Assembly: GCA_023247445.1 (NCBI GenBank) | Contig: JAHFGL010000028.1 | Coordinates: forward strand, 1 to 32,000 | Reading direction: 5' to 3' | Length of the DNA: 32,000 nucleotides | From: Candidatus Omnitrophota bacterium | Lineage (GTDB): Bacteria > Omnitrophota > Gorgyraeia > Zapsychrales > Zapsychraceae | Part shown: positions 5,780-22,884 of the stretch, piece after piece | Layout of the letters: each line of letters starts with the position of its first letter | Numbering within the stretch: the first letter of the stretch is position 1 | Translations under genes and position numbers: made by a program | Notes under the pieces: model-generated | What the model saw: only the letters and a program-made list of their open reading frames with translations | What the model was told of the DNA's origin: nothing | The model's database searches: none

Positions 5780-5809
5780 GGCTCCTGAAAGTGTTCAGGG
5801 GCCTTTTTT
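5780..5809 (+). terminator. Rho-independent terminator after ribF
   Basis: A 10-bp stem (GGCTCCTGAA at 5780-5789 against TTCAGGGGCC at 5794-5803, one G-U pair) closes the four-base loop AGTG and is followed directly by six T residues (5804-5809). It separates the ribF operon from the mraZ promoter. The 3' arm plus part of the T tract recurs as an exact 11-nt copy at 5845-5855. Confidence 0.9.
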
Positions 5810-5833
5810 ATTATATTTTCGAAAATTTATGTG

Positions 5834-5862
5834 TTGACATGGTTAGGGGCCTTTTGTATACT
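5834..5862 (+). promoter_or_regulatory. Sigma70-type promoter of the mraZ/dcw cluster
   Basis: A perfect -35 box TTGACA (5834-5839) is separated by exactly 17 bp from TATACT (5857-5862), which matches five of six -10 consensus bases. The expected transcription start is near 5869, giving a leader of about 67 nt before mraZ. It is the only near-consensus promoter seen upstream of the 16-kb cluster, so it probably drives much of it. Strength is inferred from consensus match only. Confidence 0.85.
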
Positions 5863-5870
5863 GGCACTCA

Positions 5871-5896
5871 AGGTGGGGGGAAGTGGAGTGAAGTGG
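5871..5896 (+). promoter_or_regulatory. Putative MraZ operator: three GTGG repeats at 10-bp period
   Basis: The sequence AGGTGG (5871), AAGTGG (5881) and AAGTGG (5891) places GTGG at 5873, 5883 and 5893, one helical turn apart, just after the predicted transcription start. A fourth weaker TGG follows at 5903, one base out of phase. MraZ proteins of E. coli and Mycoplasma are known to bind tandem TGGG- or AAAGTG-type repeats with 10-bp spacing near their own promoters. Position, spacing and sequence all fit autoregulation by the mraZ product encoded 40 nt downstream. Confidence 0.75.
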
Positions 5897-5935
5897 TTTA
5901 TCTGGTTTTGCTCCGCATTTTCCCTATTTATACAT

Positions 5936-6373
5936 ATGTTTTACGGTGAATATAGTCATAGCATTGATCGAAAAGGGCGGCTCATTCTCCCGTCTAAATT
6001 CCGCGAAGCTTGTAAAGAATCGGGGGTTGAACGATTTTTTATTACACGCGGCTTGGATAAATGTATTTTTATGTTTAGTTCAGATGAATGGCGAACTCAG
6101 GAGCAAAAGTTTAAGGGGATGTCATTTACTAAGCAGGAAACACGCAGTTTTAATCGTATGTTCTTTTCTGGAGCGGTCGATGTGGTTCCTGATAAGCAGG
6201 GGCGATTTATTATTCCTCCGTATCTTAAAGAATATGCCACTATCAAACGTGATACGGTGATCATTGGTATTTCGAATCGTATTGAGATTTGGGATAAAGA
6301 TATGTGGAGCAGCTTTTATAAAAATTCTAGCAATTCTTTTGAGCAGATTGCCGAAAATTTACTAAACCTATAA
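5936..6373 (+). CDS. mraZ: Transcriptional regulator MraZ
   Basis: A 145-residue DNA-binding protein of the AbrB/SpoVT-like double swapped-hairpin fold that represses its own dcw operon. The start ATG 5936 gives the family N-terminus MFYGEYSHSIDRKGRLILP; the upstream in-frame GTG at 5831 is rejected because it would translate the promoter. Two DNA-binding hairpin motifs are visible, DRKGRLILPSKFR (11-23) and DKQGRFIIPPYLKEYA (86-101). No Shine-Dalgarno precedes the start, and the leader instead holds the GTGG repeats. It is the first gene of the dcw cluster and is followed by rsmH, as in most bacteria. The protein probably forms a multimeric ring that contacts several repeats at once, as known for the family. 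Confidence 0.95.
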   Translation: MFYGEYSHSIDRKGRLILPSKFREACKESGVERFFITRGLDKCIFMFSSDEWRTQEQKFKGMSFTKQETRSFNRMFFSGAVDVVPDKQGRFIIPPYLKEYATIKRDTVIIGISNRIEIWDKDMWSSFYKNSSNSFEQIAENLLNL

Positions 6374-6430
6374 ATATAAAATTAAAAATTTATGATTGGG
6401 CCGGCGTCATTTATCAATTGTGAAGAAAAT

Positions 6431-7330
6431 ATGGAAAATCCTAAAACCCAACATATTCCTGTCATGTTAAATGAAGTGGTTGAATTATTGAAACCTTCGG
6501 GTAACGGCATTCATGTTGATTGTACTTTGGGTTTAGGAGGTCATGCGAAGGCGATTGGCAATTTGATAGGGCCCGGTGGCCGCCTTATTGGTATTGATCG
6601 TGATGGTCAAGCTCTTACTGTTGCGAAAGAAAATTTAAGTTCCTTAAGCCAACAATCTGAATTTGTCCATGATGATTTTCGTAATGTCGATAAAATTTTA
6701 GATACGTTAGGGATCCGCCAAATTGACACTTTACTCATGGATTTAGGAATCTCAAGTTTTCAATTGGATAATCCAGAAAGAGGATTTAGTATTCGAGCCG
6801 AAGGCCCGCTTGATATGCGAATGGATCAAGAGGCATACATTTCCGCCTACGATTTAATTAATACTCTATCAGAGAGAGAAATTTCCGCTATCTTAAAAGA
6901 TTTTGGGGAAGAGCGTTGGCACAACCGAATTGCGCGATATGTTGTGACAGAAAGAAATAAGGCCCCTATTTCAACGACCAAAGAATTAACTGATATTATT
7001 TTACGTGCGATCCCTTACAAAAATAAAAAGGAAAAAATTCATCCGGCGACCCGGACATTTCAAGCCATTCGAATTGCCGTCAATAGAGAGCTTGAATCTT
7101 TAGAGTTGGCATTAGGCAAATGTATTGATGCCCTTAAAATTGGTGGCCGTATTGCTGTTATTTCTTTTCATTCTTTAGAAGACAGAATTGTTAAGGATAA
7201 ATTTAGAGCCTTAGCCCAGTTAGGGCAATTAAAACTACTGACAAAAAAACCTTTAAGACCAACTGAAGAAGAGGCGGCGTATAACTCACGAGCCCGCAGT
7301 GCTCGTTTAAGAGTAGCCCAGAGGATTTAA
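6431..7330 (+). CDS. rsmH: 16S rRNA (cytosine(1402)-N(4))-methyltransferase RsmH (MraW)
   Basis: A 299-residue SAM-dependent methyltransferase that makes N4-methylcytosine at position 1402 of 16S rRNA. I prefer ATG 6431, giving MENPKTQHIPVMLNEVVELL, which matches the conserved HIPVMLxEV start; an earlier in-frame ATG at 6392 adds 13 atypical residues and has no Shine-Dalgarno. The SAM site is visible as HVDCTLGLGGHA (28-39) and GIDRDGQAL (54-62). Other conserved parts are LLMDLGISSFQLDNPERGFS (101-120), PLDMRMD (126-132), RTFQAIRIAVNREL (208-221) and VISFHSLEDRIVK (243-255). It lies between mraZ and the ftsL-like gene, whose ATG follows its stop codon immediately. Confidence 0.95.
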   Translation: MENPKTQHIPVMLNEVVELLKPSGNGIHVDCTLGLGGHAKAIGNLIGPGGRLIGIDRDGQALTVAKENLSSLSQQSEFVHDDFRNVDKILDTLGIRQIDTLLMDLGISSFQLDNPERGFSIRAEGPLDMRMDQEAYISAYDLINTLSEREISAILKDFGEERWHNRIARYVVTERNKAPISTTKELTDIILRAIPYKNKKEKIHPATRTFQAIRIAVNRELESLELALGKCIDALKIGGRIAVISFHSLEDRIVKDKFRALAQLGQLKLLTKKPLRPTEEEAAYNSRARSARLRVAQRI

Positions 7331-7714
7331 ATGCGATTAATAAATTTTTCAAAATGGATTTTTCTTTTTACCGGTTTAGCCTTAGTCTATATTCATATGC
7401 AAATGGAGATTATCGATTTGGCTTATCGAGCAAAATTTAAAGAGAAATTAATTAAAAAATTAATTGAGAAGAATAGCACCGTTAACTCTAGAATTTTGGC
7501 ATTAAAATCTTCTAATAACCTTGGCGTTAAAATGTTAGCCGAAGATAGAGGCATGGAATTTGGTGGGTCAAAAAATATTGTTCGAGCAACAACACCCCTG
7601 AAGACGACCGTTCGTCCACAATTAAGCAAGAGATCAGATACGGGTAATAGTTCTAATCCCCTTTTAAGTTTACTCTCAGGCAGCGCTCAAGCAGAAGCTA
7701 AAACAGGCGAATAA
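7331..7714 (+). CDS. ftsL: FtsL-like cell division protein
   Basis: A 127-residue single-pass membrane protein. A short cytoplasmic start (MRLINFSKW) is followed by a transmembrane segment at about 9-24, then a Lys/Glu/Leu-rich helical segment (about 36-75) ending in the EDRGMEF-like element that resembles the A-x-x-x-GM region of FtsL proteins. A low-complexity tail follows (Thr/Ser/Ala rich, 85-127). FtsL acts with FtsB and FtsQ to activate FtsW-FtsI at the septum. Sequence identity in this family is low, so the call relies mainly on topology and on position between rsmH and ftsI. The ATG immediately follows the rsmH stop, with GAGGA at 7321-7325 as ribosome binding site. Confidence 0.75.
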   Translation: MRLINFSKWIFLFTGLALVYIHMQMEIIDLAYRAKFKEKLIKKLIEKNSTVNSRILALKSSNNLGVKMLAEDRGMEFGGSKNIVRATTPLKTTVRPQLSKRSDTGNSSNPLLSLLSGSAQAEAKTGE

Positions 7715-7728
7715 TAAAGAAATGAGAA

Positions 7729-9408
7729 GTGTCAATTAGAAAATATAGTGTTAGATTTAGTTTAGTTTTTTTATTTCTTGTTACATGCCTTGTAGCATTT
7801 GTTGTTAAATTGTTTCTTATCCAAGTCTTTCGATCCTCTCATTTAGCCCACCTGGCCGATAAACAACATAGTCAACTTATTGAACTTGAACCCATCCGTG
7901 GAACAATTTATGATCGCAAGTTAAGACCGCTCGCGATTAACATTCCTGTCTTTTCTTTATTTGCCAATCCGCGTACCATGACCGATCATGATAAGGATTT
8001 AGCGGCTCAATATTTATCCCCATTAATTCACGTTGATCAGCAAAATATCCGAGATAATCTTAATAAAGATAAATATTTCGTTTGGCTTCAAAGAAAACTC
8101 CCAATGGAGTTAATAGAAAAGATTAAAGGACTTAAATTAAAAGGATTGGGATTAATTAATGAAAGCAAACGATTCTATCCTAATGGGAGTTTAGCTTCTC
8201 ATGTCATTGGATTTGCGGGAATCGATAATCACGGGTTAGAAGGATTAGAATTATTATATGAGAAAAATCTTAAAGGAGAATCTGGCTGGTCACAGATTCT
8301 TCGCGATGCCAGGCAACGCCAATTATCTATTGAGAAAAGTTATATTCCTCCACGAGATGGATTTCATGTTGTTTTAACAATCGATGAAACGATTCAATAC
8401 TTGGCGGAACGGGCCTTAGAAAAAGCATTTATTAAACATCATGCGAAATCGGCTAGTATTATTGTTATGGATGTTAAAACGGGAGAAATTTTGGCCTTGG
8501 CTAACAGACCGACCTATGATTTGGCACACGCCTCAAGCAGTCCAGCGGAGAATCGAACGAATCGAGCTATTTGCTATGTTTATGAGCCAGGTTCAGTTTT
8601 TAAGATTGTAACAGCCTCAGCCGCTTTAGAAGAAAAAGCATTTGTTGAAACAGATAAAATATATTGTGAAAATGGAGAATACCGAGTGGCTAATCATGTC
8701 CTTCATGATCATGAACGTCATGGGACATTAACGTTTCGTGGGGTCATCGAACAATCTAGCAATATCGGGACAACAAAAATTGCTCAAAAATTAGGCCCGG
8801 CGATAATTTATAAATATGCACAAAAATTTCGATTTGGAATGACAACCGGCATTGATTTACAAGGAGAGGTCCAAGGTGTGTTAAAGGCCCCTTCCCGGTG
8901 GTCCAAAACAACGATCGGTGCTATCCCCATTGGTCATGAAGTAACGGTTACCCCTATTCAATTAGTCGCGGCCCTTAATGCTATTGCTAATGACGGCATT
9001 TATATGCGTCCTTATATTGTCAAATATATTAAAGATAGTCATGATCAAATTATTAAATCTTTTGAACCCCAAGTGGTTGATCGCGTGATTAGTTCTGAAA
9101 CGGCTAAACGAGTTAAAGAAATCTTGGTGGGGGTCGTTGATAATGGAACGGGGAAACAGGCGGCCATTAAAGGAATGCGGATCGCCGGAAAAACAGGAAC
9201 GGCTCAAAAAGTAATCGGTAATGTTTATTCACACGATCAATTTTATGCCACATTTATTGGATTTGCTCCGGCAGATAATCCACGATTAGTTGCGGTGGTC
9301 GTTTTTGATGATCCGCATCCAAGCCATTTTGGTGGAACGGTTGCGGCCCCTGTCTTTAAAGAAGTGTTTGAAAGTGCGTTAAAATATTTAGAGAATTCAG
9401 GATCATAA
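7729..9408 (+). CDS. ftsI: Penicillin-binding protein, FtsI/PBP3-type septal transpeptidase
   Basis: A 559-residue class B penicillin-binding protein that crosslinks septal peptidoglycan with FtsW. The N-terminal signal anchor lies at about 11-33, followed by the pedestal motif EPIRGTIYDRKLRPLAIN (54-71). The transpeptidase domain has all three active-site motifs: SVFK with nucleophile Ser289 (YEPGSVFKIVTA), SSN (343-345) and KTG (488-490, AGKTGTAQ). No PASTA domains follow. The start is GTG 7729; the ATG at 7722 runs into a stop after five codons. The Shine-Dalgarno is weak. It sits between ftsL and murE as in canonical dcw clusters, and its length matches FtsI rather than the longer elongation PBP2. 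Confidence 0.94.
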   Translation: MSIRKYSVRFSLVFLFLVTCLVAFVVKLFLIQVFRSSHLAHLADKQHSQLIELEPIRGTIYDRKLRPLAINIPVFSLFANPRTMTDHDKDLAAQYLSPLIHVDQQNIRDNLNKDKYFVWLQRKLPMELIEKIKGLKLKGLGLINESKRFYPNGSLASHVIGFAGIDNHGLEGLELLYEKNLKGESGWSQILRDARQRQLSIEKSYIPPRDGFHVVLTIDETIQYLAERALEKAFIKHHAKSASIIVMDVKTGEILALANRPTYDLAHASSSPAENRTNRAICYVYEPGSVFKIVTASAALEEKAFVETDKIYCENGEYRVANHVLHDHERHGTLTFRGVIEQSSNIGTTKIAQKLGPAIIYKYAQKFRFGMTTGIDLQGEVQGVLKAPSRWSKTTIGAIPIGHEVTVTPIQLVAALNAIANDGIYMRPYIVKYIKDSHDQIIKSFEPQVVDRVISSETAKRVKEILVGVVDNGTGKQAAIKGMRIAGKTGTAQKVIGNVYSHDQFYATFIGFAPADNPRLVAVVVFDDPHPSHFGGTVAAPVFKEVFESALKYLENSGS

Positions 9409-9427
9409 TTTTGGAGCATAGAATGAC

Positions 9428-10888
9428 ATGATGCGCTTGGGGGAATTATTAAAAGATATTTATAGGGACGTTCAAAATATATCCTATCTCAATTGGGATA
9501 TTCAAGCTATTAGCTGTGATTCTCGTCGGGTTGAGAAAGATAGTTTATTTGTTGCGCTTAAGGGAACAAGTCTAGATGGAGCTAGCTTTATCGAAAGTGC
9601 TATTGATAAAGGCGCTCGCGTTATTGCCGTTGAGCGAAAAACCCAACTAAAAATAATCCACCCTGATGTTTGCTATTTATACGTTGATGATGCCCATCAA
9701 TTTTTGCGTGATCTGGCTAAACGTTTTTATGGAAATCCTTCAGCACTCGTTAAAACTATAGGCGTAACTGGAACCAATGGAAAAACAACTATCACCTATT
9801 TAGTTCAATCGATCTTTGCGCAAACTGGCCAAGAGTGTGCAATTATTGGAACGATCAATTATAAATTAGGAAACAAAACTATTCCTTCAGCAAATACCAC
9901 GCCGGGGCTTCTGGATAATCAACAATTTTTATGTGATTTAACTAAAGAAGGAATCGCTTATTGCGTGATGGAAGTTTCCTCCCATGCGCTCGATCAGGGG
10001 CGGATTGATTTGATTGATTTTAAAACAGCGGTTTTTACTAACTTGACCAGCGATCATCTAGATTATCATAAAACGCGAGAAAATTATTTCTTAGCCAAAT
10101 CTTTGTTATTTAAAAATTTATCAGCTCACGCTGCGGCCGTAATTAATGTTGATGATGAATTTGGTGTCCGATTAACAACGATGACCAAGGCTAAGGTTAT
10201 TACGTACGGCATTAAAAATAATGCTACCTTGCAAGCCAAAGATATTGAGCTTAATTTAAAAGGAACCAGATTTAAATTAATCATCGACAAAAAAGAAATC
10301 AGCATTCAAACAAAGTTATTTGGGATTCATAATGTTTATAATATCCTTGCTGCCATTGGTGTGGCGTATCAAGAAAATATTAGTTTTGAGGTGATTCAAA
10401 AAGGTATTGAGAAGTTGGCCTTTGTTAATGGTCGACTAGAACGGGTTGATTGTGGTCAAGACTTTGCGGTTTTTATTGATTATGCCCATACTGAAGATGC
10501 TTTGATCAATGTCCTGTCAACAATACGTCAAACAAGTAAAGCAAAAATTATTTTGGTCTTTGGTTGTGGCGGTGATCGGGATAAGACTAAACGTCCCAAA
10601 ATGGGGAGTGTCGCTTGCGCTATGGCAGACTTCTCTATTATAACCAGCGACAACCCACGCAGTGAAGATCCCGAAATGATCATCAAAGAAATTGTTCAAG
10701 GATTTAAGAAGAATAATTATACTGTTGTTGTCAACCGCGAAGAAGCCATTGATAAGGCTTTAAAGATGGCGACCTCAGGCGATATCGTTCTTATCGCCGG
10801 CAAAGGCCATGAAACCTACCAAATTTTTAAAGATAAAACAATTCATTTTGATGAACGCGAAGTCGTTCGTAAAATTCTGGCATGTTAA
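9428..10888 (+). CDS. murE: UDP-MurNAc-tripeptide synthetase MurE (meso-diaminopimelate-adding)
   Basis: A 486-residue cytoplasmic ATP-dependent ligase that adds the third residue to UDP-MurNAc-L-Ala-D-Glu. The ATP loop is GVTGTNGKTTITYL (112-125); YFLAKSLLF contains Lys224, which should be the carbamylated lysine. The motif SDNPRSEDP (407-415) marks enzymes that use meso-diaminopimelate rather than lysine, so mDAP-type peptidoglycan is predicted. The C-terminal GKGHETYQ (458-465) is also family typical. Two ATG codons occur in tandem (9428 and 9431), with GGAG at 9413-9416 as a moderately distant ribosome binding site. The last 7 nt overlap murF, indicating coupled translation. Confidence 0.95.
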   Translation: MMRLGELLKDIYRDVQNISYLNWDIQAISCDSRRVEKDSLFVALKGTSLDGASFIESAIDKGARVIAVERKTQLKIIHPDVCYLYVDDAHQFLRDLAKRFYGNPSALVKTIGVTGTNGKTTITYLVQSIFAQTGQECAIIGTINYKLGNKTIPSANTTPGLLDNQQFLCDLTKEGIAYCVMEVSSHALDQGRIDLIDFKTAVFTNLTSDHLDYHKTRENYFLAKSLLFKNLSAHAAAVINVDDEFGVRLTTMTKAKVITYGIKNNATLQAKDIELNLKGTRFKLIIDKKEISIQTKLFGIHNVYNILAAIGVAYQENISFEVIQKGIEKLAFVNGRLERVDCGQDFAVFIDYAHTEDALINVLSTIRQTSKAKIILVFGCGGDRDKTKRPKMGSVACAMADFSIITSDNPRSEDPEMIIKEIVQGFKKNNYTVVVNREEAIDKALKMATSGDIVLIAGKGHETYQIFKDKTIHFDEREVVRKILAC

Positions 10889-12246
10889 AAATTAAAGAAA
10901 TTTTAAAAGCTACGGGTGGCAAGCTGATTACTGGGAAAGATTCTCTGGTTATTAAACGGGTTTTAATTGATTCGCGCTCGATTCAATCCGGAGATTTATT
11001 TATTGCGATTAAGGGTGAGCGTTTGGATGGACATAAGTTTATCGCACAGGCCATAGAGAAGGGGGCAGCAGCTGTTATCGTATCTCAAAAGATTTCTTGT
11101 CCTGATCACGTCGCGGTTATTTTGGTTAGGGATACAACCAAGGCTTTGGGCGAGATTGCCCATTTTTATCGTGACAAGTTTTCCCTTCCCATTATTGCGA
11201 TTACAGGAAGTGCTGGCAAAACAACGACCAAAGAAATGATTGCCGCGGTTCTTTCCTGCCGATTTAATGTGCTTAAGAATTTTAAAACAGAAAATAATCA
11301 ATTTGGCGTGCCACTCACGTTATTAAAACTTAATAAATCCTACGACGTTGCCGTTGTTGAGTTAGGAACGAATCGTTTTGGTGATATTCCTTGGTTGGCA
11401 AAAATAACTAATCCCACCATCGCAGTTTTTACCAACGTTGGAGAATCTCATCTTGAGCGACTAAAAACTCCAGCTGGTGTATTTCGTGAAAAGTTTCAGA
11501 TGGTTAAATTTATGCCTAAAAGTGGCCGCGTCATTTTTAATGAAGATGATCGCTATTTGAAAAAAATTGCGCAAAAATCTATACCCCAGAAGAAAATTAG
11601 CTATGCTATTAATACAGCTGCTTTATGTAAGGCTTCGGACGTCAAACGTACAGAGCGTAATCAAATTGAATTTAAAGTTAAGGGTAGGAAATTTACTCTT
11701 AACACACCTTTTGCGCACAATGTTTACAATGCCTTAGCCGCCATTAGTTGTGGCCTTATATTTAAAATTAGCCTGCCACAAATGGTCAAGACATTGAGTT
11801 CTTTTGGATTTGCCGATGGTCGTCAAGAAATTAAAAAAATTGGCAAGCTCATGTTGATTAATGACACCTATAATTCGAATCCCGTTTCGCTGCGCAGTGC
11901 CATCGATACGTTAAGTTCTTTAAAAATAGATAGAAGAAAAATTTTGGTTTGTGCCGATATGCTTGAATTGGGCCAACATTCTAAACGACTTCATGCTTTA
12001 ATCGGAGAAAATATTGCCCAATCAACCATTGATGCTGTTTTTACAATGGGCCCTTATGCAAAAGATATTCATTTAGGGATTAGAAAGTTTAAAAACAATA
12101 TTCAAACATATCATGAATCCAATCTTGAGGCGCTTAATCATAGACTGAAAGATTTTTGTCAGCCAGGAGATGTTTTGCTCATTAAAGGATCCCGCGGAAT
12201 GCATCTGGAGAAAACCGTCGAGTTTTTAGAGAAAAATTTTAATTAA
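10882..12246 (+). CDS. murF: UDP-MurNAc-tripeptide--D-Ala-D-Ala ligase MurF
   Basis: A 454-residue Mur ligase that adds D-Ala-D-Ala to UDP-MurNAc-tripeptide, completing the cytoplasmic pentapeptide precursor. The N-terminal substrate domain shows IDSRSIQSGDLFIAIKGERL with DGHKFI, the ATP-binding loop is AITGSAGKTTTKEMI (106-120), and the C-terminal domain contains the MurF-specific INDTYNSNP (Asn327 to Pro334). VELGTNRFGDI and NVGESHLERL are also typical of MurF. Its ATG lies within the end of murE, and mraY follows after a 22-nt gap. Its substrate D-Ala-D-Ala is made by the ddl product encoded later in the cluster. Confidence 0.95.
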   Translation: MLKIKEILKATGGKLITGKDSLVIKRVLIDSRSIQSGDLFIAIKGERLDGHKFIAQAIEKGAAAVIVSQKISCPDHVAVILVRDTTKALGEIAHFYRDKFSLPIIAITGSAGKTTTKEMIAAVLSCRFNVLKNFKTENNQFGVPLTLLKLNKSYDVAVVELGTNRFGDIPWLAKITNPTIAVFTNVGESHLERLKTPAGVFREKFQMVKFMPKSGRVIFNEDDRYLKKIAQKSIPQKKISYAINTAALCKASDVKRTERNQIEFKVKGRKFTLNTPFAHNVYNALAAISCGLIFKISLPQMVKTLSSFGFADGRQEIKKIGKLMLINDTYNSNPVSLRSAIDTLSSLKIDRRKILVCADMLELGQHSKRLHALIGENIAQSTIDAVFTMGPYAKDIHLGIRKFKNNIQTYHESNLEALNHRLKDFCQPGDVLLIKGSRGMHLEKTVEFLEKNFN

Positions 12247-12268
12247 TATAGATTTATAAAGGATCATT

Positions 12269-13360
12269 ATGTTTTACTTTTTATCTAGCTTGCGCAATGA
12301 TTTTTTCGGATTTAATATTTTTAAATACATCACCTTTAGAACAGGGATGGCCGCGATGACGACGTTTCTGTTGTGCATTATTTTCGGACCATTTCTTATT
12401 AAGAAACTAAAGGAAATGAAAATTCGTGAAATTGCTAAAAGAGAGGACTGCCCTGATCTAGATAAATTTCAACATTCAAAAGAAGGAACTCCCACGATGG
12501 GAGGCCTTTTTATTATTGGAAGCATTGTTTTCTCGATTCTGTTGTGGGCTGATTTATCCAATCGATTTGTTCTGTTGACACTATTTACCTGCATTTGGTT
12601 GGCCATTTTAGGTTTTATCGATGATTACGCAAAATTAACAAAGAAGATTAAAGGCAAGCGCGGACTTTCCAAACGAGCAAAATTATTTTGGGAAATTCTT
12701 TTGGGATGTATCGTTGGAGCCTTTATTTACTTTCATTCCGATAATTCAACAAAGTTAGATGTTCCATTTCTAAAGAATTTGATAATCGATTTGGGAATTC
12801 TTTATATCCCCTTTGTGGCCATCATTGTTATCGGCACATCAAATGCAGTTAATTTAACCGATGGATTAGATGGCTTGGCGATTGGTTGTGTTCTTATCGT
12901 CAGCTTAGCCTTAGCGGCATTAAGTTATATCAGCGGTAACATTAATTTCAGTGATTATCTTTTTATTCCATTTGTTGAGGGAGCTGGTGAATTGACCGTT
13001 GTTTGTGCAGCCGTGATCGGTGCAAGCTTGGGATTTTTATGGTTTAATTGTCATCCCGCGACGGTATTTATGGGGGATGTCGGTTCACTACCATTAGGTG
13101 GAACATTAGGGGTCATTGCTGTTCTTATTAAAAAAGAACTTCTTCTTGTTATTTTGGGAGGAATATTTGTTTTGGAAGCTATGTCGGTTATTTTACAAGT
13201 GACATCATTTAAAACCACCGGTAAGCGCATCTTCAAAATGTCTCCGTTTCATCATCATTTACAACTATCCGGTTGGAATGAATCGAAAATAATTATTCGT
13301 TTCTGGATCATCGCGATAATTTTAGCTCTCCTTACTTTAACGACACTCAAATTGCGTTAA
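12269..13360 (+). CDS. mraY: Phospho-N-acetylmuramoyl-pentapeptide transferase MraY
   Basis: A 363-residue polytopic inner-membrane enzyme that transfers phospho-MurNAc-pentapeptide to undecaprenyl phosphate, making lipid I. Catalytic motifs seen are GTPTMGGLF (73-81), FIDDYAKLTKK (117-126, Asp118 and Asp119), NAVNLTDGLDGLAIG (192-206), VFMGDVGSLPLGG (catalytic Asp270) and the HHH motif MSPFHHHLQLSGW. About ten hydrophobic segments fit the family topology. AAAGGA at 12258-12263 provides a good ribosome binding site five bases before ATG 12269. It is separated from murD by four bases. Length is typical for the family. Confidence 0.96.
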   Translation: MFYFLSSLRNDFFGFNIFKYITFRTGMAAMTTFLLCIIFGPFLIKKLKEMKIREIAKREDCPDLDKFQHSKEGTPTMGGLFIIGSIVFSILLWADLSNRFVLLTLFTCIWLAILGFIDDYAKLTKKIKGKRGLSKRAKLFWEILLGCIVGAFIYFHSDNSTKLDVPFLKNLIIDLGILYIPFVAIIVIGTSNAVNLTDGLDGLAIGCVLIVSLALAALSYISGNINFSDYLFIPFVEGAGELTVVCAAVIGASLGFLWFNCHPATVFMGDVGSLPLGGTLGVIAVLIKKELLLVILGGIFVLEAMSVILQVTSFKTTGKRIFKMSPFHHHLQLSGWNESKIIIRFWIIAIILALLTLTTLKLR

Positions 13361-13364
13361 GAAT

Positions 13365-14684
13365 ATGGTTAATTTAAAGAATAAAAAAATAACAATTCTG
13401 GGTGGGAAAAGAAGCGGGATGGCTTTAGCGCGTTTGATCATACGCTTAGGAGGTATCGCTAAAATATCTGAACAGGCCTCAGAGAGTTCTTTGCCTGAAG
13501 ATTTTCGCAATTGGGCGATCGCCCGAAATGTTGCTTTAGAATTTAATGGACATACCCAAGCCTTTATTGAAGAGAGCGATTTGGTTGTTTTGAGTCCTGG
13601 CATTCGATTTAATGCCCCGCCAGTTAAGTGGGCGCATGATAGAGGTATTGCTGTTTTGGGAGAGATTGAATTTGCGGCGCAGTTTTGTAACAAACCCATC
13701 ATTGCCGTCACGGGAAGCAATGGGAAAACAACCGTTGTAACTCTGATTAATAAAGTTTTACAAAAAGCTGGTTATAAATCGTGTTTGTGTGGCAATGTGG
13801 GAATGCCGTTTTCAGAATTTGTTTTGGAATCCAACAAAAAAGATTTCTTTGTTCTTGAGATTAGTTCTTTTCAATTAGAATCTCTGCTTGATTTGAATTC
13901 TTCATTTCGGGGAAATCATAGTAATGGCGTATTGCATTTTCAGGGCTTTAAGCCTTTTATTGCTGTTGTTTTAAATTTTAGTCAGAATCATTTAGATCGG
14001 CACAAAGATTTGGAAGAATATTTTCAGGCTAAAATGAGAATATTTCTTAATCAAACCTCTGAAGATTTTGCCGTCTTAAATTATCAAGATGAGCGGTTAA
14101 AAGAATATTCGTCACAACTTGAATCAAAAGTAATCTTTTTTAATTCAACTCAAAATCAAACGGCCAAAGAGATAAAGAACCCTAATCATTCTGTTGTTAT
14201 TAAAGTAGCCAAGATCTTGGGAATCGAAGAATCTGTTTGCCAGAATGTTTTTACCACATTTGAAGGTGTTGAACATCGCTTAGAGGTGGTACGATCCCTG
14301 GATGGTGTCAAATATATTAACGATTCTAAGGCCACAACCGCAGAGTCAGGGCGGTGGGCATTAAAAAGTATTGACCAGCCTATTGTGATGATCTGTGGTG
14401 GACGAGATAAGAATATTGACTTTACGGTTTTAAAAGATTTGGTTAAATCAAAAGTAAAAAGAATGTTGGTGATTGGTGAAGCCAAGGCAAAACTTTCACA
14501 AGCCTTTGAAGGTGTCGTGCCGGTTGAAGAGTGTAATAGTTTAGAAGATGCTGTTTTGCGGGCAAAAGAAATTGCCCATCAAGGAGATTGTGTTGTTTTG
14601 ACGCCGATGTGCGCGAGCTTTGATATGTTTCTTGATTACGAAGATCGTGGTCGAAAATTTAAAGATATCGTTAACAAACTTTAA
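13365..14684 (+). CDS. murD: UDP-MurNAc-L-alanine--D-glutamate ligase MurD
   Basis: A 439-residue Mur ligase that adds D-Glu to UDP-MurNAc-L-Ala. The N-terminal Rossmann-like domain begins KKITILGGKRSGMALARL; the ATP loop is AVTGSNGKTTVVTL (114-127); EISSFQLES (165-173) and NHLDRH (208-213) flank the active site, and ICGGRDKNIDF and LTPMCASFDMF lie in the C-terminal domain. Two points are odd. Compared with E. coli MurD, about 20 extra residues (roughly 174-194) separate SSFQLE from the next strand, and the usual DHLDRH reads NHLDRH. Frame and downstream motifs remain intact, so the enzyme should be functional. It follows mraY by four bases and precedes ftsW. Confidence 0.94.
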   Translation: MVNLKNKKITILGGKRSGMALARLIIRLGGIAKISEQASESSLPEDFRNWAIARNVALEFNGHTQAFIEESDLVVLSPGIRFNAPPVKWAHDRGIAVLGEIEFAAQFCNKPIIAVTGSNGKTTVVTLINKVLQKAGYKSCLCGNVGMPFSEFVLESNKKDFFVLEISSFQLESLLDLNSSFRGNHSNGVLHFQGFKPFIAVVLNFSQNHLDRHKDLEEYFQAKMRIFLNQTSEDFAVLNYQDERLKEYSSQLESKVIFFNSTQNQTAKEIKNPNHSVVIKVAKILGIEESVCQNVFTTFEGVEHRLEVVRSLDGVKYINDSKATTAESGRWALKSIDQPIVMICGGRDKNIDFTVLKDLVKSKVKRMLVIGEAKAKLSQAFEGVVPVEECNSLEDAVLRAKEIAHQGDCVVLTPMCASFDMFLDYEDRGRKFKDIVNKL

Positions 14685-14703
14685 AAGGTATTCATTTTTA
14701 TTT

Positions 14704-15795
14704 ATGCGTGATATTCGAATTTCGATTGCAACGATTGTGATTCTTTTGATTAGCATTGGGCTGGTGATGATCTATAGCGCCAGTGGCATTTATGCGTTGC
14801 AAGAGATGGGGGACGCTACCTATTTCTTGAATCGTCATTTCATGTTTTTGATTATTGGAAGTTTTGCGACATTTGCCGTCATGAGTTTCGATTATCGTGA
14901 ATTACGTAAATATGTCAAACCACTTCTTGTTATAACGATCATCTTGCTTGTTTTTGTTTTGATCCCGGGCATCGGGAAATCAACTTATGGAGCCCGACGT
15001 TGGTTTAGGGTTGGGCCGATTAACTTTCAACCATCGGAGCTGGCTAAATTAACGGTATTAATTTATACAGCTGATTTTTTGGCACGAAAGAAATCAAAGA
15101 TTGGAAATTTTGTCGAAGGATTTCTTCCCTTAGTGATGATTCTTGGCATAGTTTCACTATTGATTGTCAAGCAGCCGGACTTAGGAAACACAGTCCTTAT
15201 TGCGAGTGTCATGCTCATTATGATGTTTATCGCTGGAGCCAATACCCTACATATTGGAATTTTGGGATTATTATCGTTACCGGTTTTATATTATTTAATC
15301 GCCCGTGTCGCTTATCGTTTAAAAAGAATTATTGCTTTTTTGGATCCCTGGCAAGACAGCCAAGGGATTGGTTTTCAGTTGTCTCAATCACAGATCGCTT
15401 TGGGTTCTGGCGGTTTATTAGGCGTTGGGCTCGGTCATAGCGTTCAAAAATTATTTTTTCTTCCCGCCGCACATACGGATTTCATTTTATCGATTATTGG
15501 GGAAGAGTTTGGATTAGTCGGAACGGTTTCGGTTGTTTTATTATTTGCGGCTTTCATTTGGCAGGGAGCACGTATTGCCAAACGTACAACGGATCCTTTT
15601 GGCTATTATTTAGCGATTGGTATCGTGGCGATGCTAGGTCTTCAGGCGGTGGTTAATATTGGTGTGAGTATTGGTGCTTTTCCGACGAAAGGATTGCCAC
15701 TTCCTTTTATTAGTTACGGTGGATCGGCTTTGATTTTTAATTTGGTAGCGGTGGGTCTCCTTCTTAATATTTCTCGTATTCAGGATCTGCATTGA
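14704..15795 (+). CDS. ftsW: Septal peptidoglycan polymerase FtsW (SEDS family)
   Basis: A 363-residue polytopic SEDS glycosyltransferase that polymerises lipid II at the septum with FtsI. The start ATG 14704 gives MRDIRISIATIVILLISIGLV; an upstream in-frame ATG at 14620 would read the end of murD in another frame. Typical motifs are VMIYSASG, STYGARRWFRVGPINFQPSE followed by LAK, KQPDLGNTVLI, SQIALGSGGLLGVGLGHS and the terminal PFISYGGSALIFNLVAVGLL. The N-terminal MIYSAS and the GLPLPFISYGGS motif fit FtsW and RodA alike, but the dcw position between murD and murG supports FtsW. The Shine-Dalgarno is weak. A perfect inverted repeat spans its stop codon region. Confidence 0.93.
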   Translation: MRDIRISIATIVILLISIGLVMIYSASGIYALQEMGDATYFLNRHFMFLIIGSFATFAVMSFDYRELRKYVKPLLVITIILLVFVLIPGIGKSTYGARRWFRVGPINFQPSELAKLTVLIYTADFLARKKSKIGNFVEGFLPLVMILGIVSLLIVKQPDLGNTVLIASVMLIMMFIAGANTLHIGILGLLSLPVLYYLIARVAYRLKRIIAFLDPWQDSQGIGFQLSQSQIALGSGGLLGVGLGHSVQKLFFLPAAHTDFILSIIGEEFGLVGTVSVVLLFAAFIWQGARIAKRTTDPFGYYLAIGIVAMLGLQAVVNIGVSIGAFPTKGLPLPFISYGGSALIFNLVAVGLLLNISRIQDLH

Positions 15796-15823
15796 CCTAC
15801 TAGAAATAACAGAAGGTCAATGC
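15789..15823. repeat. Perfect 10-bp inverted repeat at the ftsW-murG junction
   Basis: GCATTGACCT (15789-15798) pairs exactly with AGGTCAATGC (15814-15823) across a 15-base loop. The left arm covers the last ftsW codons and the TGA stop. No T tract follows, so a standard intrinsic terminator is unlikely; an mRNA stem that protects or attenuates the transcript is possible. A second small stem (GAAGG with CCTTC, 15812-15831) would compete with it. Confidence 0.6.
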
Positions 15824-15868
15824 TGGCCTTCGCGTTGATGAAAATTCTGGAAATTGAGTCGATTATTT

Positions 15869-16984
15869 ATGCGGAAGCCTGTAGTGGACAAGAGCAATCA
15901 AACAATAGTGATCGCAACCGGTGGATCGGGGGGACATTTATTTCCCGCTATTGCTGTTGCTGAGATTTTACGAAATGATGGTTATTCTGAGATTTTATTT
16001 TTAGGTTCATTTGGCATCGGCCTTGAGAAATTAGAACAAAAAGGATTTGCTTGTCATAATCTTGCGGCACGTGGATTAAGTTTTAAAAATCCAATCATTG
16101 CAATCTCTTCCATTATTTCGATCATGAGGGCTGCCGTTTCATCGTTATTTCTTCTTAGAAAGATTAAACCACAGACTGTTATTGGTTTTGGCGGATATGG
16201 TGCTTTTCCGGTCGTCGCTGCTGCTATTTTTTTAAAATACCCAACCATGATTCATGAACAGAATGTCCTTCCAGGACGGGCCAATCATCTTTTGGCTAAC
16301 TTTGTTAATAAAATAGCGATTAGCTTTAAACAAAGTGAACACTATTTTAATATTAGCAAAACGGTTTTAACGGGATGCCCATCGCATATCACAAAAAAAG
16401 AAGTTTTAAGATCCGAAACTTTAAAGAGATTCCAATTACAAGATAATAAATTTACTATTTTTGTTTTTGGTGGGAGTCAAGGCAGCCATCGTGTTAATGA
16501 AATTTTTCTAGAGACCGCAAAGATTCTGAAACAAGAAATAGATTTTCAGGTGATTCATGCGTGTGGAAAGAAAGATTATCCACAGCTTAAAATCGAGTAT
16601 GAAAAATCCGGTATAAACGTCGCCCTTTTTGATTTCTTGGATAAAATTGATGAGGCCTATGCGGTTAGTGATCTTGTGATTAGTCGTGCGGGAGCTGGGA
16701 CGGTGACGGAACTTGCGATGTGTGAGCGACCAGCTCTTTTAATTCCGTATCCGTATGCGCAAGCTCACCAAAAAGAAAATGCGGCTGTTTTATCCGCAAT
16801 TAAGGCCGCAGCAATAATTGATGAAAATGATTTATCTGCCGAGAAGCTCAAAGAAGAGATTTTTAAAATAAAAAATGCAGGGATTCTTTCTAAAGAGGTT
16901 CGACAGAAACTTCAAACCATTTATTTTCCTGATGCGGCCAAACGAATAGCCAGAGAGATCGTAAAACTCATTAATGAAATTTAG
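15869..16984 (+). CDS. murG: Lipid II synthase MurG (UDP-GlcNAc transferase)
   Basis: A GT-B glycosyltransferase of about 372 residues that adds GlcNAc to lipid I on the inner face of the membrane, forming lipid II. The donor and lipid loops are clear: IATGGSGGHLFPAIAVAE (15-32), HEQNVLPGRAN, FVFGGSQGSHRVNEIF, SRAGAGTVTELAMCERPALL and IPYPYAQAHQKENA. The start is uncertain. ATG 15869 is used here; TTG 15854 upstream and GTG 15884 downstream are in frame, and the last has GGAAG at 15873-15877 in good position. Any of these keeps the glycine loop intact. The 3' end overlaps the following peptidase gene by 11 nt. Confidence 0.93.
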   Translation: MRKPVVDKSNQTIVIATGGSGGHLFPAIAVAEILRNDGYSEILFLGSFGIGLEKLEQKGFACHNLAARGLSFKNPIIAISSIISIMRAAVSSLFLLRKIKPQTVIGFGGYGAFPVVAAAIFLKYPTMIHEQNVLPGRANHLLANFVNKIAISFKQSEHYFNISKTVLTGCPSHITKKEVLRSETLKRFQLQDNKFTIFVFGGSQGSHRVNEIFLETAKILKQEIDFQVIHACGKKDYPQLKIEYEKSGINVALFDFLDKIDEAYAVSDLVISRAGAGTVTELAMCERPALLIPYPYAQAHQKENAAVLSAIKAAAIIDENDLSAEKLKEEIFKIKNAGILSKEVRQKLQTIYFPDAAKRIAREIVKLINEI

Positions 16985-17747
16985 AATATTACTAATTATT
17001 TTTATTTTTCTTTGTTTTCCTTCCCAAGGATTTTCTCAAGAGTGGAAGACGCATCAGGGACGACATTTTATTGTTTACTATAAACAAGCCCCACAAGATT
17101 TTGTTAAAAACGTTGAACAAATGGCAGAATCTTATTATGATGAGATCTCAGATAATTTTAGATTCACTCGAGATAAGGCCTGGAGTCAAGACGAGCGCGC
17201 GAAGATTTACATTTATAATGATGCGAACGATTACGTCAAAAATGCCAAGCAAGCGCATTGGTCTCATGGCGCGGCTTCTCCGCATGACAAAACAATTCGG
17301 ACATTCCCAGCAGCTCACGGATTCTTTGATTCAACACTTCCGCATGAACTGGGGCATATTATTTTTCATGAATGTGTTGGTTTTAAAAGTAACGTCCCCA
17401 ATTGGTTTGAAGAAGGGGTTGCCATGTATCAAGAGAAGGCCAAACGTTGGGGAGCCCATCACGCGGTTAAAAAAGCTTTAGAGAATAAAAGTTTTAAATC
17501 TTTGGCAGAATTAAGCTCAACAACTTTATACAGTAATAGTGATCCTAAGCTTGTTGAGATTTTTTATGCGGAATCAGCGAGCGTTGTTTATTTTATGATT
17601 AGTGAGTTTGGGAATTATCGATTCTTTAATTTGTGCCATAAACTCGAAGAAGGAATGCCTTTCAACAAAGCTTTAGAAGCCGCGTATGGGCGATTTAAAA
17701 ATGTCGATGAATTAAATAGAGCTTGGGTTAAATATCTAAAAGAATGA
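16974..17747 (+). CDS. Predicted secreted zinc metallopeptidase (peptidase MA-like, HEXXH)
   Basis: A 257-residue protein with a signal peptide (about 1-21, ending GFS before QEW). The central motif LPHELGHIIFHE (122-133) gives zinc ligands His124 and His128 with catalytic Glu125. NWFEEGVAMYQE (143-154) supplies the downstream Glu (146 or 147) expected in gluzincins of the peptidase MA/M1-like group. The N-terminal part has a secreted substrate-domain look (HFIVYYKQAPQDFVKNVEQ), and the C-terminal part is helical. It is predicted to act in the periplasm; its substrate is unknown. The gene overlaps murG by 11 nt and murC by 4 nt (ATGA), so it is cotranslated with peptidoglycan genes. Canonical dcw clusters do not carry it here. 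Confidence 0.85.
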   Translation: MKFRILLIIFIFLCFPSQGFSQEWKTHQGRHFIVYYKQAPQDFVKNVEQMAESYYDEISDNFRFTRDKAWSQDERAKIYIYNDANDYVKNAKQAHWSHGAASPHDKTIRTFPAAHGFFDSTLPHELGHIIFHECVGFKSNVPNWFEEGVAMYQEKAKRWGAHHAVKKALENKSFKSLAELSSTTLYSNSDPKLVEIFYAESASVVYFMISEFGNYRFFNLCHKLEEGMPFNKALEAAYGRFKNVDELNRAWVKYLKE

Positions 17748-19132
17748 AAAAACATTATCATTTTATTGGCATTGGCGGTATTGGTATGGGAGCCTTGGCC
17801 TCACTTGTTATGGCTCAAGGCCATCACGCCAGCGGATCAGATCTTAAAGACAGCGCCATGACACAGCGGCTTAAAGAAGAAGGCGCGAAAATCTTTATTG
17901 GGCATGATGCAAGAAATGTTGAGGATGCGGATTTTGTTATCTTTTCTTCCGCCGTTGACGAAAATAACCCTGAATTAAAAACTGCAACAGCAAGAAATAT
18001 CCCTATTTTAAGACGAGCTCAATTGTTGTCACAACTGATGCAAGGCCATATTGGAATCACCGTTGCTGGAGCACATGGCAAAACGACAACAACATCCATG
18101 ATTTCCAATTTGCTTATTAATGCGGGTTTGCAACCCACAACCGCGGTGGGAGGAATTATTAATGGAACAACCAATAATGCACGGCTAGGAGCCGGCCGCC
18201 ATTTTGTGGCTGAGGTTGATGAGAGCGATGGTTCATTCTTATATTTTTCTCCACAATATTCTGTTATTACCAACATCGATTTTGAGCATCTTGATTACTA
18301 TCATAATTGGGAAAATATTATTAAAGCTTATCGAGAGTTTATTTGGAAAACCACCGTCGATGGCGTTGTGATTGGTTTTGGGGATGATGAGCGGCTGATG
18401 GCTTTACTTAAGGCAAGTAAACGCAACTTTGAGACATATGGATTTACAAAAGATCATGCCGTCCATGCGCTTAATATACAGTTTGATCATTTTTCATCGC
18501 GGTTTGATTGCATTGTCCACGGGAAGAATATGGGGCCAGTGGTTTTAAATGTTCCTGGTCAGCACAACATTGCCAATGCGATGGCCTGTATCAGTCTTGG
18601 CTTAAAATTAAATATTGATTTTAATGTTATCGTCCAGAATTTGCGCGAATATAAAGGGGTCAATCGACGTTTTCAAACAATTGGAACTGTTGATGAGGTT
18701 TTGGTTATTGATGACTACGGACATCATCCGACGGAAATTTTAGCAACATTATCGGCGGCCCAAAAGGTTAAAAAGAATCGTTTGGTGGTCGCTTTTCAAC
18801 CACATCGCTATACGCGATTAAAATCTTTATTAAAAGAATTTGCGCAGAGTTTAACTCAGTGCGATTATTTGATTGTCACCGATGTCTATGCCGCTAGTGA
18901 AAAACCAATTGAGGGGATAACGGGGGCAAGATTAAGCGAAGAGGTCCAGAAAATTTCAACGAAGCCGGTGGTATATTTAGAAAAAGATAAGATAATGGAG
19001 CATCTTTTAAAAATTGTTAAACCAGGTGATTTGGTCATGACTTTGGGGGCTGGAGATATTACGAAAATTTCATATGAATTGGTAGAAGCTTTGAAAGGGG
19101 CAAGGGTCATGGGGCATGGGAGTAGAAAATAA
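17744..19132 (+). CDS. murC: UDP-N-acetylmuramate--L-alanine ligase MurC
   Basis: A 462-residue Mur ligase that starts the peptide stem by adding L-Ala to UDP-MurNAc. The N-terminal dinucleotide-like fold begins HFIGIGGIGMGALASL, the ATP loop is VAGAHGKTTTTSMI (107-120), and the C-terminal domain contains IDDYGHHPTEI and AFQPHRYTRL, both diagnostic of MurC. The start ATG overlaps the peptidase stop as ATGA. The last residues (GARVMGHGSRK) come from a G-rich direct repeat and look like a tail added to the usual end. In most clusters murB follows to supply the UDP-MurNAc substrate; here ddl follows directly. Confidence 0.95.
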   Translation: MKKHYHFIGIGGIGMGALASLVMAQGHHASGSDLKDSAMTQRLKEEGAKIFIGHDARNVEDADFVIFSSAVDENNPELKTATARNIPILRRAQLLSQLMQGHIGITVAGAHGKTTTTSMISNLLINAGLQPTTAVGGIINGTTNNARLGAGRHFVAEVDESDGSFLYFSPQYSVITNIDFEHLDYYHNWENIIKAYREFIWKTTVDGVVIGFGDDERLMALLKASKRNFETYGFTKDHAVHALNIQFDHFSSRFDCIVHGKNMGPVVLNVPGQHNIANAMACISLGLKLNIDFNVIVQNLREYKGVNRRFQTIGTVDEVLVIDDYGHHPTEILATLSAAQKVKKNRLVVAFQPHRYTRLKSLLKEFAQSLTQCDYLIVTDVYAASEKPIEGITGARLSEEVQKISTKPVVYLEKDKIMEHLLKIVKPGDLVMTLGAGDITKISYELVEALKGARVMGHGSRK

Positions 19133-19158
19133 AGCCTTGTCCCTTGCTACTTGACCCT
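19097..19158. repeat. G-rich direct repeat and inverted repeats at the murC-ddl junction
   Basis: GGGGCAAGGG (19097-19106) recurs with one change as GGGGCATGGG (19111-19120). GCAAGGG (19100-19106) is the exact reverse complement of CCCTTGC (19141-19147), and AGGGTCA (19103-19109) of TGACCCT (19152-19158), so two alternative stems can form over the murC stop codon. There is no T tract. The element shares a GGTCA/TGACC core with the palindromes at 15789 and 30607. Confidence 0.55.
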
Positions 19159-19169
19159 CAGGATATTTT

Positions 19170-20147
19170 ATGCCAATAAACACTAAACAATTCGGGCGTA
19201 TCGGAGTTTTGATGGGAGGTTATTCCTCAGAGAGAGCAATTTCTCTTAAATCAGGCACGGCTATCTTTGAAGCGCTGAAAGCTGAGCACTGTGACGTCGT
19301 GGCGTTAGATATTCAAGATCAAGAAGAACAAAAGATTATTGATCTTATTAAAAAAGCAGATATTGATATAGCTTTTATTGCCTTGCACGGACAATTAGGC
19401 GAAGATGGAACCATTCAATCGATCTTAGAGAAATTAGAAATTCCATATCCTGGATCAGGTGTTGACGCCAGTCGATTATCCATTAATAAAGTCTTGGCAC
19501 AAAATTTGTTTAAGAAAAATAATATTCAAATTGCGCCATTCGTTAGTTTAGTGAAAAAGAATTCAGCGGATATTGATGAGGTTATTAACCAATTAAAATC
19601 TTTTCCTTTGGTTGTTAAACCAGCTTGTGAAGGGTCAAGTATCGGTGTAACGTTGGTTCGTAACAAAAAAGAATTAATAAAAGCCATTGATGTCGCTTGG
19701 CAGTATGGACCACAGGTGTTGGTTGAAAAATATATTAAAGGAAGAGAATTAACTGTTGGCATCCTTAATCAAAAAGCTTTATGTGTTATTGAAATTTGCG
19801 CGAAAGGTGATTTTTTTGATTTTGCAGCCAAGTATCAAAGTGGGTTGACGGAATATATTTTTCCAGCGCAGATTCCCCAACAAACAGCTTTACGTATTCA
19901 AAAGATGGCTCTTGATGCTCACACCGCGCTTGGGTGTGAAGATCTTTCCCGTGTTGATTTTATTTTAAGTGACGATGGGACGCCGTATGTTTTAGAAATT
20001 AATACAATCCCTGGGTTTACTTCAACGAGCTTGTTGCCCAAGGCAGCGAAAGAAGCAGGTTTAAACTTTAATCAACTCTGTTTTAAATTGGTAGAATTAG
20101 CTTATGGCAAAAAGAAAAAAAGTACAACTATCCCCGTCAGCCGCTAA
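19170..20147 (+). CDS. ddl: D-alanine--D-alanine ligase Ddl
   Basis: A 325-residue ATP-grasp enzyme that joins two D-alanines for use by MurF. Visible motifs are GVLMGGYSSERAISLKSG (12-29), IALHGQLGEDGTIQ, GSGVDASRLSINK, VVKPACEGSSIGVTLV and the active-site end VLEINTIPGFTSTSLLPKAA. AGGA at 19159-19162 precedes the ATG at a good distance. The gene overlaps ftsQ by 44 nt, so its basic tail (KKKKSTTIPVSR) is encoded within the ftsQ start. The ddl-ftsQ-ftsA order is canonical for dcw clusters; the absence of murB upstream is not. Confidence 0.95.
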   Translation: MPINTKQFGRIGVLMGGYSSERAISLKSGTAIFEALKAEHCDVVALDIQDQEEQKIIDLIKKADIDIAFIALHGQLGEDGTIQSILEKLEIPYPGSGVDASRLSINKVLAQNLFKKNNIQIAPFVSLVKKNSADIDEVINQLKSFPLVVKPACEGSSIGVTLVRNKKELIKAIDVAWQYGPQVLVEKYIKGRELTVGILNQKALCVIEICAKGDFFDFAAKYQSGLTEYIFPAQIPQQTALRIQKMALDAHTALGCEDLSRVDFILSDDGTPYVLEINTIPGFTSTSLLPKAAKEAGLNFNQLCFKLVELAYGKKKKSTTIPVSR

Positions 20148-20880
20148 AGGACTAATCATTTGTATTGTCGTCCCGGTTTTGACTTTCTTTATTTTTAGTA
20201 AATTCATGCATATCATCATGCAATCCGATTATTTTAAAGTTCAGTCGATTGTTATTGAAGATCCCAACTTGCAATTTATTGATCAACAGGATTTGACGCG
20301 ATTAAGAGGTCGAAGTATTTTTACGGTTAATCTAAAGGATATTCAAAAAAAGCTCAATATGAAGTATCCGCAAGTAGCCGGACTGCGAATTGTCCGCAAT
20401 TTCCCCAATCAGATCATGATTGTTGCCAGGAAGCGGATTCCCTATACTCAGGTTCGGTTAGGGAATCGTATTGTAATGTTGGATTTAAGAGGGGTTGTAG
20501 TGGCCACGACAAATAAACCCGATAACAATCTGCCATTAATATTAGGTGTCAAAACAAATGGCCAAAGAATATTTTTAGGCCAACCGTTTTTAGGTCAAGA
20601 TGTGCAAGCAGCTCTTAAAGTTCTTAAAATATTTCAAATCAACAAAGGATTGTCAGCGTATCGTATTGCACGGATTGATGTAAGTAATTTGTCGAATATC
20701 GAATTTTATTTAACGAATAATCTTAAAATTATATTTGATTGGGATAAAATTGAAGAGAAAATAAATACGTTAAGTCTCATGCTATCTCAAGGACAGTTAA
20801 AACTAAATGAAATCACTTACATTGATCTAAGATTTAAAGAACCTATCATAGGACAAAATAATGCTAAAAAAGATGATTAG
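20104..20880 (+). CDS. ftsQ: Cell division protein FtsQ
   Basis: A 258-residue bitopic membrane protein of the divisome that links FtsB/FtsL to the septal synthase. A short basic cytoplasmic tail (MAKRKKVQLSPSAAKG) precedes a transmembrane helix at about 16-38, followed by a POTRA-type domain (about 43-112: FKVQSIVIEDP, LRGRSIFTVNLKDIQKKL, RIVRNFPNQIMIVARKR). The FtsQ beta domain follows (YTQVRLGNRIVMLDLRGVVV, then FYLTNNLKIIF and ITYIDLRFKEPII near the end). The gene overlaps ddl by 44 nt and ftsA by 20 nt. Overall identity is low, as usual for FtsQ, but domain order and position support the call. Confidence 0.9.
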   Translation: MAKRKKVQLSPSAAKGLIICIVVPVLTFFIFSKFMHIIMQSDYFKVQSIVIEDPNLQFIDQQDLTRLRGRSIFTVNLKDIQKKLNMKYPQVAGLRIVRNFPNQIMIVARKRIPYTQVRLGNRIVMLDLRGVVVATTNKPDNNLPLILGVKTNGQRIFLGQPFLGQDVQAALKVLKIFQINKGLSAYRIARIDVSNLSNIEFYLTNNLKIIFDWDKIEEKINTLSLMLSQGQLKLNEITYIDLRFKEPIIGQNNAKKDD

Positions 20881-22102: not shown

Positions 22103-22121
22103 TAGTTCGACTTGGCTCTCA

Positions 22122-22469
22122 CTAGTCTTTGGTGGGAGGGCGTCGCGTCAGGTTATAGCCAATGTCTTTGAGGATAGTCGTCAACCGTTGCATGGTGTTA
22201 AACATAAACAGCAGCCAGAACGAATTAAGCAGTAGAAGAAACACAATGATAGTTGTATTAATCGAGAACGCCATGAGCATCCGTTCTTGAATATTCGTTT
22301 TGGAAACGGCAACACTGGTATCGATAATATTAAAAAGATTAGCGAACCAAAACACAAAAACAACGACTAAAACAATTTGGAAAAAAGTGAAATAAAAATG
22401 TCGGATCAGCCATTTCGCTGTCAAATTATCCCAATGACGAACCTTATTCATGAAGTCTTTAAACGGCAT
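22122..22469 (-). CDS. Small membrane protein, two transmembrane helices, unknown function
   Basis: A 115-residue protein on the minus strand that I do not recognise. On that strand AAGGAG lies five bases before the ATG at 22469, which fixes the start and excludes longer readings to 22499. The N-terminus (MPFKDFMNKVRHWDN) is polar and possibly amphipathic; transmembrane helices lie at about 26-47 and 68-92, the second followed by MQRLTTILKDIGYNLTRRPP, a basic cytoplasmic tail. A TAAAAT element upstream on the minus strand could be a -10 box, but no good -35 is seen. It converges on ftsA and diverges from the next gene, so it is its own transcription unit. Confidence 0.7.
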   Translation of the reverse strand: MPFKDFMNKVRHWDNLTAKWLIRHFYFTFFQIVLVVVFVFWFANLFNIIDTSVAVSKTNIQERMLMAFSINTTIIVFLLLLNSFWLLFMFNTMQRLTTILKDIGYNLTRRPPTKD

Positions 22470-22873: not shown

Positions 22874-22884
22874 GAATTCCTCCC

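Follow-up and report, generated by a model that had tools for sequence, protein, structure and literature searches.

Organization of the mraZ locus

The window, by which we mean the whole 32-kb stretch of DNA that was analyzed, contains on its forward strand an mraZ gene (5936–6373) whose 145-residue product, the presumed autorepressor, matches Pfam family PF02381 over two stretches with an E-value of 6.7e-39 (132.1 bits against a cut-off of 23). When the solved MraZ chains of the Protein Data Bank were compared with this protein by phmmer, the best E-value was 2.9e-17. DxxxR is a motif of MraZ domains, and both domains of the protein carry it, at residues 11–15 and 86–90; the residues D11, R15, D86, and R90 are invariant in an alignment of 11 sequences. 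Directly after mraZ lies rsmH (mraW; 6392–7330, forward strand; PF01795, E 7.9e-110), and the remaining co-directional cluster (7331–22102, forward strand) comprises, in order, an open reading frame at the ftsL position with no family match, a class B penicillin-binding protein (PBP) at the ftsI position with family matches below the curated cut-offs only, murE, murF, mraY, murD, ftsW, murG, a peptidase-MA family protein, murC, ddl, ftsQ, and ftsA. The gene starts of ftsW and murG are our choice. The peptidase-MA family protein (16974–17747), between murG and murC, has by eye a signal-like N-terminus. Farther downstream, an open reading frame of 1934 residues (24388–30192) has a translation that by eye resembles an alpha-2-macroglobulin-type protein.

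From mraZ to ftsA (5936–22102) the genes run in one direction and overlap or are separated by gaps of less than 80 nt. Terminator-like sites between 5700 and 22800 number 18, against 14.6 expected (standard deviation 3.7), which is the chance level, and a single mraZ-to-ftsA transcript is plausible from this arrangement. Neither ftsZ nor murB was recognized in the 16-kb cluster; murB lies outside it, on another contig (G000:C19:20309-20629). The earlier note on this DNA had spoken of autorepression of the whole 16-kb dcw cluster. An MraZ-led run as far as ftsA is indeed present, but it lacks ftsZ and murB, so "whole dcw cluster" has to be read as mraZ to ftsA.

Promoter and box array upstream of mraZ

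Between ribF and mraZ, all on the forward strand, are a terminator-like hairpin, a promoter, and an array of short repeats. The hairpin (5780–5803), 3′ of ribF, has 10 base pairs, six of them G-C, and is followed by TTTTTTATTA; its base-pair number is the largest among the 18 terminator-like sites. Separating ribF from the mraZ promoter, it would shield the latter from upstream transcription. The promoter consists of a −35 element TTGACA (5834–5839), identified by reading the sequence and by a promoter scan, and a −10 element TATACT (5857–5862), identified by the same two means and by comparison of upstream regions, with a spacer of 17 nt. It agrees with TTGACA/TATAAT at 11 of 12 positions and is the best-scoring of seven promoters in 1.2 kb (shuffle mean 4.0), which bears out the near-consensus promoter proposed in the earlier note. 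A segment at 5840–5859, comprising the end of the −35 element, the spacer, and the first bases of the −10 element, shares 85% identity over 20 nt with the right terminator arm of ribF, 48 bp upstream (5792–5811); this similarity perhaps reflects a local duplication.

The first of the repeats, AGGTGG (box 1; 5871–5876, core GTGG 5873–5876), begins 8 nt past the −10 element. It is followed by two AAGTGG boxes, box 2 (5881–5886, core 5883–5886) and box 3 (5891–5896, core 5893–5896), both assigned from sequence and conservation. The GTGG cores at 5873, 5883, and 5893 thus have a period of exactly 10 bp, as had been noted earlier. The array is one of direct repeats with a GTG core, placed just 3′ of the −10 element of the promoter that precedes mraZ and the dcw genes. 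GTGG-N6-GTGG-N6-GTGG occurs a single time in the window when both strands are searched and in none of 100 dinucleotide-preserving shuffles of it. AAGTGG describes the complete box better than the bare GTGG.

A fourth TGG at 5903 had been taken as a sign of a degenerate extra box. The letters are there (CTGG, 5902–5905, one base off phase), but an extra box was rejected for want of conservation,.TGG being found at +29 in 5 of 134 upstream regions and at +30 in 1 of 128. Also rejected was a reading in which the boxes lie inside a longer MraZ frame. The open frame of the window does extend upstream from the mraZ ATG as far as 5831; a number of relatives have open frames of just 145–150 residues, and these short frames, with a box period that is not a multiple of three, indicate that the boxes do not code for a longer MraZ.

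Conservation of the array across Omnitrophota

Two sets of genomes were compared, a nearer set of 92 (from the window's own family out to its class) and a phylum-wide set of 117; they share 15 genomes, including the window's own (a 2.29-Mb assembly, 95.6% complete), and total 194. MraZ was detected in 80 of the 92 and 112 of the 117, i.e. in 177 distinct genomes, and the upstream regions of 172 of these, window included, were scored. In three of the five unscored genomes mraZ is cut or fragmented (G029, G097, G154), and in the other two (G090, G192) its start was not recognized by our script; G090 carries the triple in the genome-wide search described below. The mraZ match of another genome, G101, has one TAA within it (L186; G101:C3:55258-55686).

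With a threshold of at least 14 of 18 positions against three AAGTGG boxes with a 10-bp period, the array was found in 170 of the 172 regions scored, which come from 47 families and include the window. The passing regions amount to 76 of 77 in a first group, to which the window's own genome belongs, and 94 of 95 in a second, and every scored member passes in 45 of the 47 families. The two regions below the threshold each score 13; one has two perfect boxes and has lost box 1 (G086), and the other is G128. Mononucleotide shuffles of the 77 regions reached a best score of at least 14 in 13 of 15,400 cases. The array has thus been maintained beside mraZ in evolution, and the prediction survived the comparison with relatives that the earlier note had named as its refutation test. 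The adjoining promoter is also retained: in a search limited to the vicinity of the boxes, at least 10 of 12 positions agree with TTGACA/TATACT in 171 of 172 regions, and the agreement is complete in 117.

Base conservation was computed on the 160 of 172 operators whose distance to the start codon is 30 nt or more. The GTGG of each box (letters 3–6) is 93–100% conserved, whereas the two A residues are conserved to 82–94% in boxes 2 and 3 and to 61–63% in box 1. Of the three boxes, box 1 varies most among the scored regions, and the AGGTGG of the window fits this pattern. The spacers favor G at position 2 and A or G at position 4. Over the 172 regions, GTGG pairs are spaced by 10 bp in 322 cases and by 20 in 158, compared with two cases each at 9 and 11; minor counts at 7 (25) and 13 (29) are compatible with overlapping GTGGTGG.

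The discriminator of some relatives seems to hold an additional, degenerate box. Among the 172 operators, 27 have GTG exactly 10 bp before box 1, and the neighboring positions −11 and −9 have it in 5 and 3 operators; the complete GTGG occurs in 6 at −10 and in 5 at −11. No such phased box is present in the window, which has GGCA at that place. CCCA, an inverted half-box, lies in 16 of 74 promoter spacers of 17 nt, and the window's own family accounts for 13 of these 16; the window's spacer does not contain it.

Specificity of the triple within genomes

We searched the 92 nearer genomes for the triple with at most one mismatch, using the reversed pattern as a control. Of 73 matches, 72 are situated 2–158 nt 5′ of mraZ, in 70 genomes, and a single one lies away from mraZ (G019:C27); the reversed pattern gave two matches in the 92 genomes. 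Ten of the 80 genomes with mraZ have no triple match there at this stringency: eight score 14–16 of 18, one scores 13 (G086), and one has no upstream sequence (G029). This specificity belongs to the triple only, since a two-box search of the window's own genome with one mismatch gave fewer matches (28) than its reversed control (48). On this evidence, the MraZ of these bacteria would have one full-strength (triple) site per genome.

The triple, again with at most one mismatch, is absent from all 12 genomes in which mraZ was not detected. Because rsmH was found in just four of these 12, in two of them at 37–38% identity, the joint absence of mraZ and the operator may reflect missing sequence or assembly gaps. 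In one genome, G014, an open reading frame precedes rsmH and mraZ was not found; its contig reaches about 450 nt beyond rsmH on the upstream side, and in that stretch the operator was not found.

The array as a predicted MraZ operator

We read the AAGTGG-N4-AAGTGG-N4-AAGTGG array at 5871–5896 as the predicted operator of the MraZ encoded just downstream, giving negative feedback on the cluster, and we put the probability of this reading at roughly 0.9. It builds on features established here, namely the layout of the array, how widely it is conserved, how close it comes to being unique in each genome, its link to the promoter, and the assignment of the downstream protein as MraZ. MraZ binding and autorepression in Omnitrophota are predicted from these features, and the transcription start site probably lies at the array. 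As the boxes begin 8 nt past the −10 element, they should span the start site together with about 30 bases at the beginning of the transcript. According to the literature MraZ forms a ring, and this ring would touch successive boxes one helical turn apart, on the same face of the DNA; the exactness of the helical period and the conservation of A and T within the boxes agree with a ring-shaped protein reading a single face. Bound MraZ would then obstruct RNA polymerase at the promoter that scores best ahead of mraZ-rsmH-…-ftsA, and the outcome would be negative feedback of MraZ on its own cluster, with a reach of one presumed transcript.

The position of the boxes bears on whether they act in DNA or in the mRNA leader. 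The gap between the −10 element and box 1 is 7–10 nt in 113 of 172 regions, with other groups at −2 to 1, 4–6, and 12–14 nt and one region at 18; this gap is not single-valued in the phylum, and steric details must therefore differ. In one family, f36, the operators begin mostly 13–14 nt past the −10 element, about half a helical turn beyond the window's class, and a CCGATAAT-like stretch by eye mostly stands right ahead of box 1. The distance from the boxes to the start codon ranges from 26 to 214 nt. Were the repeats a translation-level element of the leader, such as a Shine-Dalgarno or standby site, one could point to the 76 of 172 regions in which box 1 is no more than 45 nt from the start codon, to the GGAGG, AGGAG, or GGAGA found within the last 20 nt in 46 of those 76, and to some regions where a Shine-Dalgarno-like sequence by eye merges with box 3. 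We give this reading almost no credence, as the standard deviation is 40.5 nt for the distance to the start codon and 3.4 nt for that to the −10 element; moreover, box 3 of the window ends 39 nt ahead of the ATG, and inspection of 5897–5935 by eye made no Shine-Dalgarno sequence evident. The boxes follow the −10 element more closely than they follow the start codon, which marks them as a promoter-level DNA element.

Such an element might still fold on its own or serve another protein. In the accessible text of PMC11796246, a G-quadruplex (G4) is described 3′ of the mraZ promoter of Staphylococcus aureus, with reporter data, and conserved G4 motifs are described in further mraZ promoters. A quadruplex in DNA or 5′ leader RNA controlling the mraZ promoter could accordingly be imagined here, as the operator of the window has a G4Hunter score of 1.54 and a two-tier motif; it is one of seven among 172 that reach 1.5, and in so G-rich an operator a local quadruplex may form. 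Four conserved, stackable G tracts were nevertheless not found across the phylum: a three-tier motif occurs at the operator in 0 of 172 regions and a two-tier motif (loops up to 7) in 44, with a mean G4Hunter score of 0.82. A quadruplex, moreover, has no need of an exact 10-bp period, and it leaves aside the non-G positions of AAGTGG (A-A and T), which are conserved to 82–100% in boxes 2 and 3. We consider this explanation very unlikely, and the comparison suggests that the conserved G4 motifs reported at mraZ promoters are in part MraZ boxes. That some other conserved regulator binds the repeats in place of MraZ is scarcely credible to us. Conservation beside mraZ does not by itself identify the binder, and MraZ in that role is a prediction; yet the box resembles the MraZ boxes of Escherichia coli, Mollicutes, and Burkholderia, and all but one of the 73 triple matches in the 92 genomes are at mraZ.

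A cluster without ftsZ

No ftsZ was recognized after ftsA in the window (20861–23180), where the cluster closes with ftsA. The FtsZ_C profile had no match in the window's own genome, in any of the 92 nearer genomes, or in any of the 117 phylum genomes, 88 of which have a completeness of 90% or more and a contamination of 5% or less. The tubulin/FtsZ GTPase domain was likewise found in none of the 117 and in one of the 92 (G054), which has an FtsZ-type open reading frame running off its contig and a TubZ-like one on a different contig. Each search gave a signal in 13 of the 14 genomes used as controls; an FtsZ that has diverged strongly could be missed by both profiles, and genome OLB16 was left out of the test. 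FtsA-family matches are present in 92 of 92 nearer genomes, a count to which PilM-like proteins can also contribute, and among the best-scoring matches listed, at least 41 genomes have one 15.2–20.1 kb 3′ of mraZ on the same contig.

In the available text, two reviews credit Omnitrophica with FtsZ (PMC5147048, PMC5945725), one through the single genome OLB16; FtsZ is there found in that genome only, and its absence from two others is left undecided (PMC5147048). The dcw genes of Omnitrophota are termed highly conserved in an accessible part of PMC12283558. At about even odds, the MraZ of this phylum would be a one-site regulator of a division cluster in a lineage that has lost FtsZ and retains FtsA, FtsQ, FtsW, and a class B PBP, with the loop maintained by selection on wall and divisome synthesis and not on FtsZ dosage. 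If true, the phylum would divide without FtsZ, and if the FtsZ-free context holds, the purpose of MraZ feedback becomes testable apart from FtsZ levels.

Comparison with known MraZ operators

Operators of this type are already known from experiments elsewhere, and the predicted Omnitrophota example carries the type into a phylum without cultured members and adds a quantitative consensus; in their accessible parts, PMC10066038 and PMC12283558 describe no MraZ operator for Omnitrophota. With this consensus, the near-single-site specificity, and the clear relation to the promoter, the regulon of a candidate phylum can be called with high confidence and tested in vitro at little cost, and the conserved G-rich stretches at mraZ, elsewhere interpreted as G-quadruplexes, receive an alternative reading.

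The likeness to known operators that the earlier note had drawn holds for the Pmra promoter of E. coli K-12, where GTGG recurs with the same exact 10-bp period (GTGGGAAATTGTGGGGCAAAGTGGG), directly 3′ of the −10 element and upstream of mraZ. There the boxes are GTGGG, with AA preceding the third box only, and by our reading the −10 element is TAAACT with an 18-nt spacer; moreover, ftsZ follows ftsA in E. coli, whereas ftsA has no ftsZ behind it here. According to the available portion of PMC7761207, E. coli MraZ binds a repeated sequence and thereby represses the genes from mraZ to murC at Pmra, and MraZ of Burkholderia cenocepacia shifts a fragment in gels in which a motif search gave four repeats (7 nt plus 3 nt) located 3′ of the −10 element and over the start site. 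The 10-bp period and the location 3′ of the −10 element are shared with the Omnitrophota array, as is, by prediction, the overlap with the start site; the array of the window has three repeats instead of four. In Mollicutes, for which binding is also reported, the MraZ box is AAAGTG[T/G] (Fisunov 2016, as cited in the accessible text of PMC8475190 and PMC5138195), with one occurrence in the M. genitalium chromosome (PMC8475190). The Omnitrophota array resembles it in having an AAAGTGG-type box, direct repeats, and, much as in M. genitalium, a nearly single site per genome, and differs in favoring AAGTGGnGnR units, arranged as three boxes, and in the 16-kb cluster that follows, compared with four genes in M. 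genitalium.
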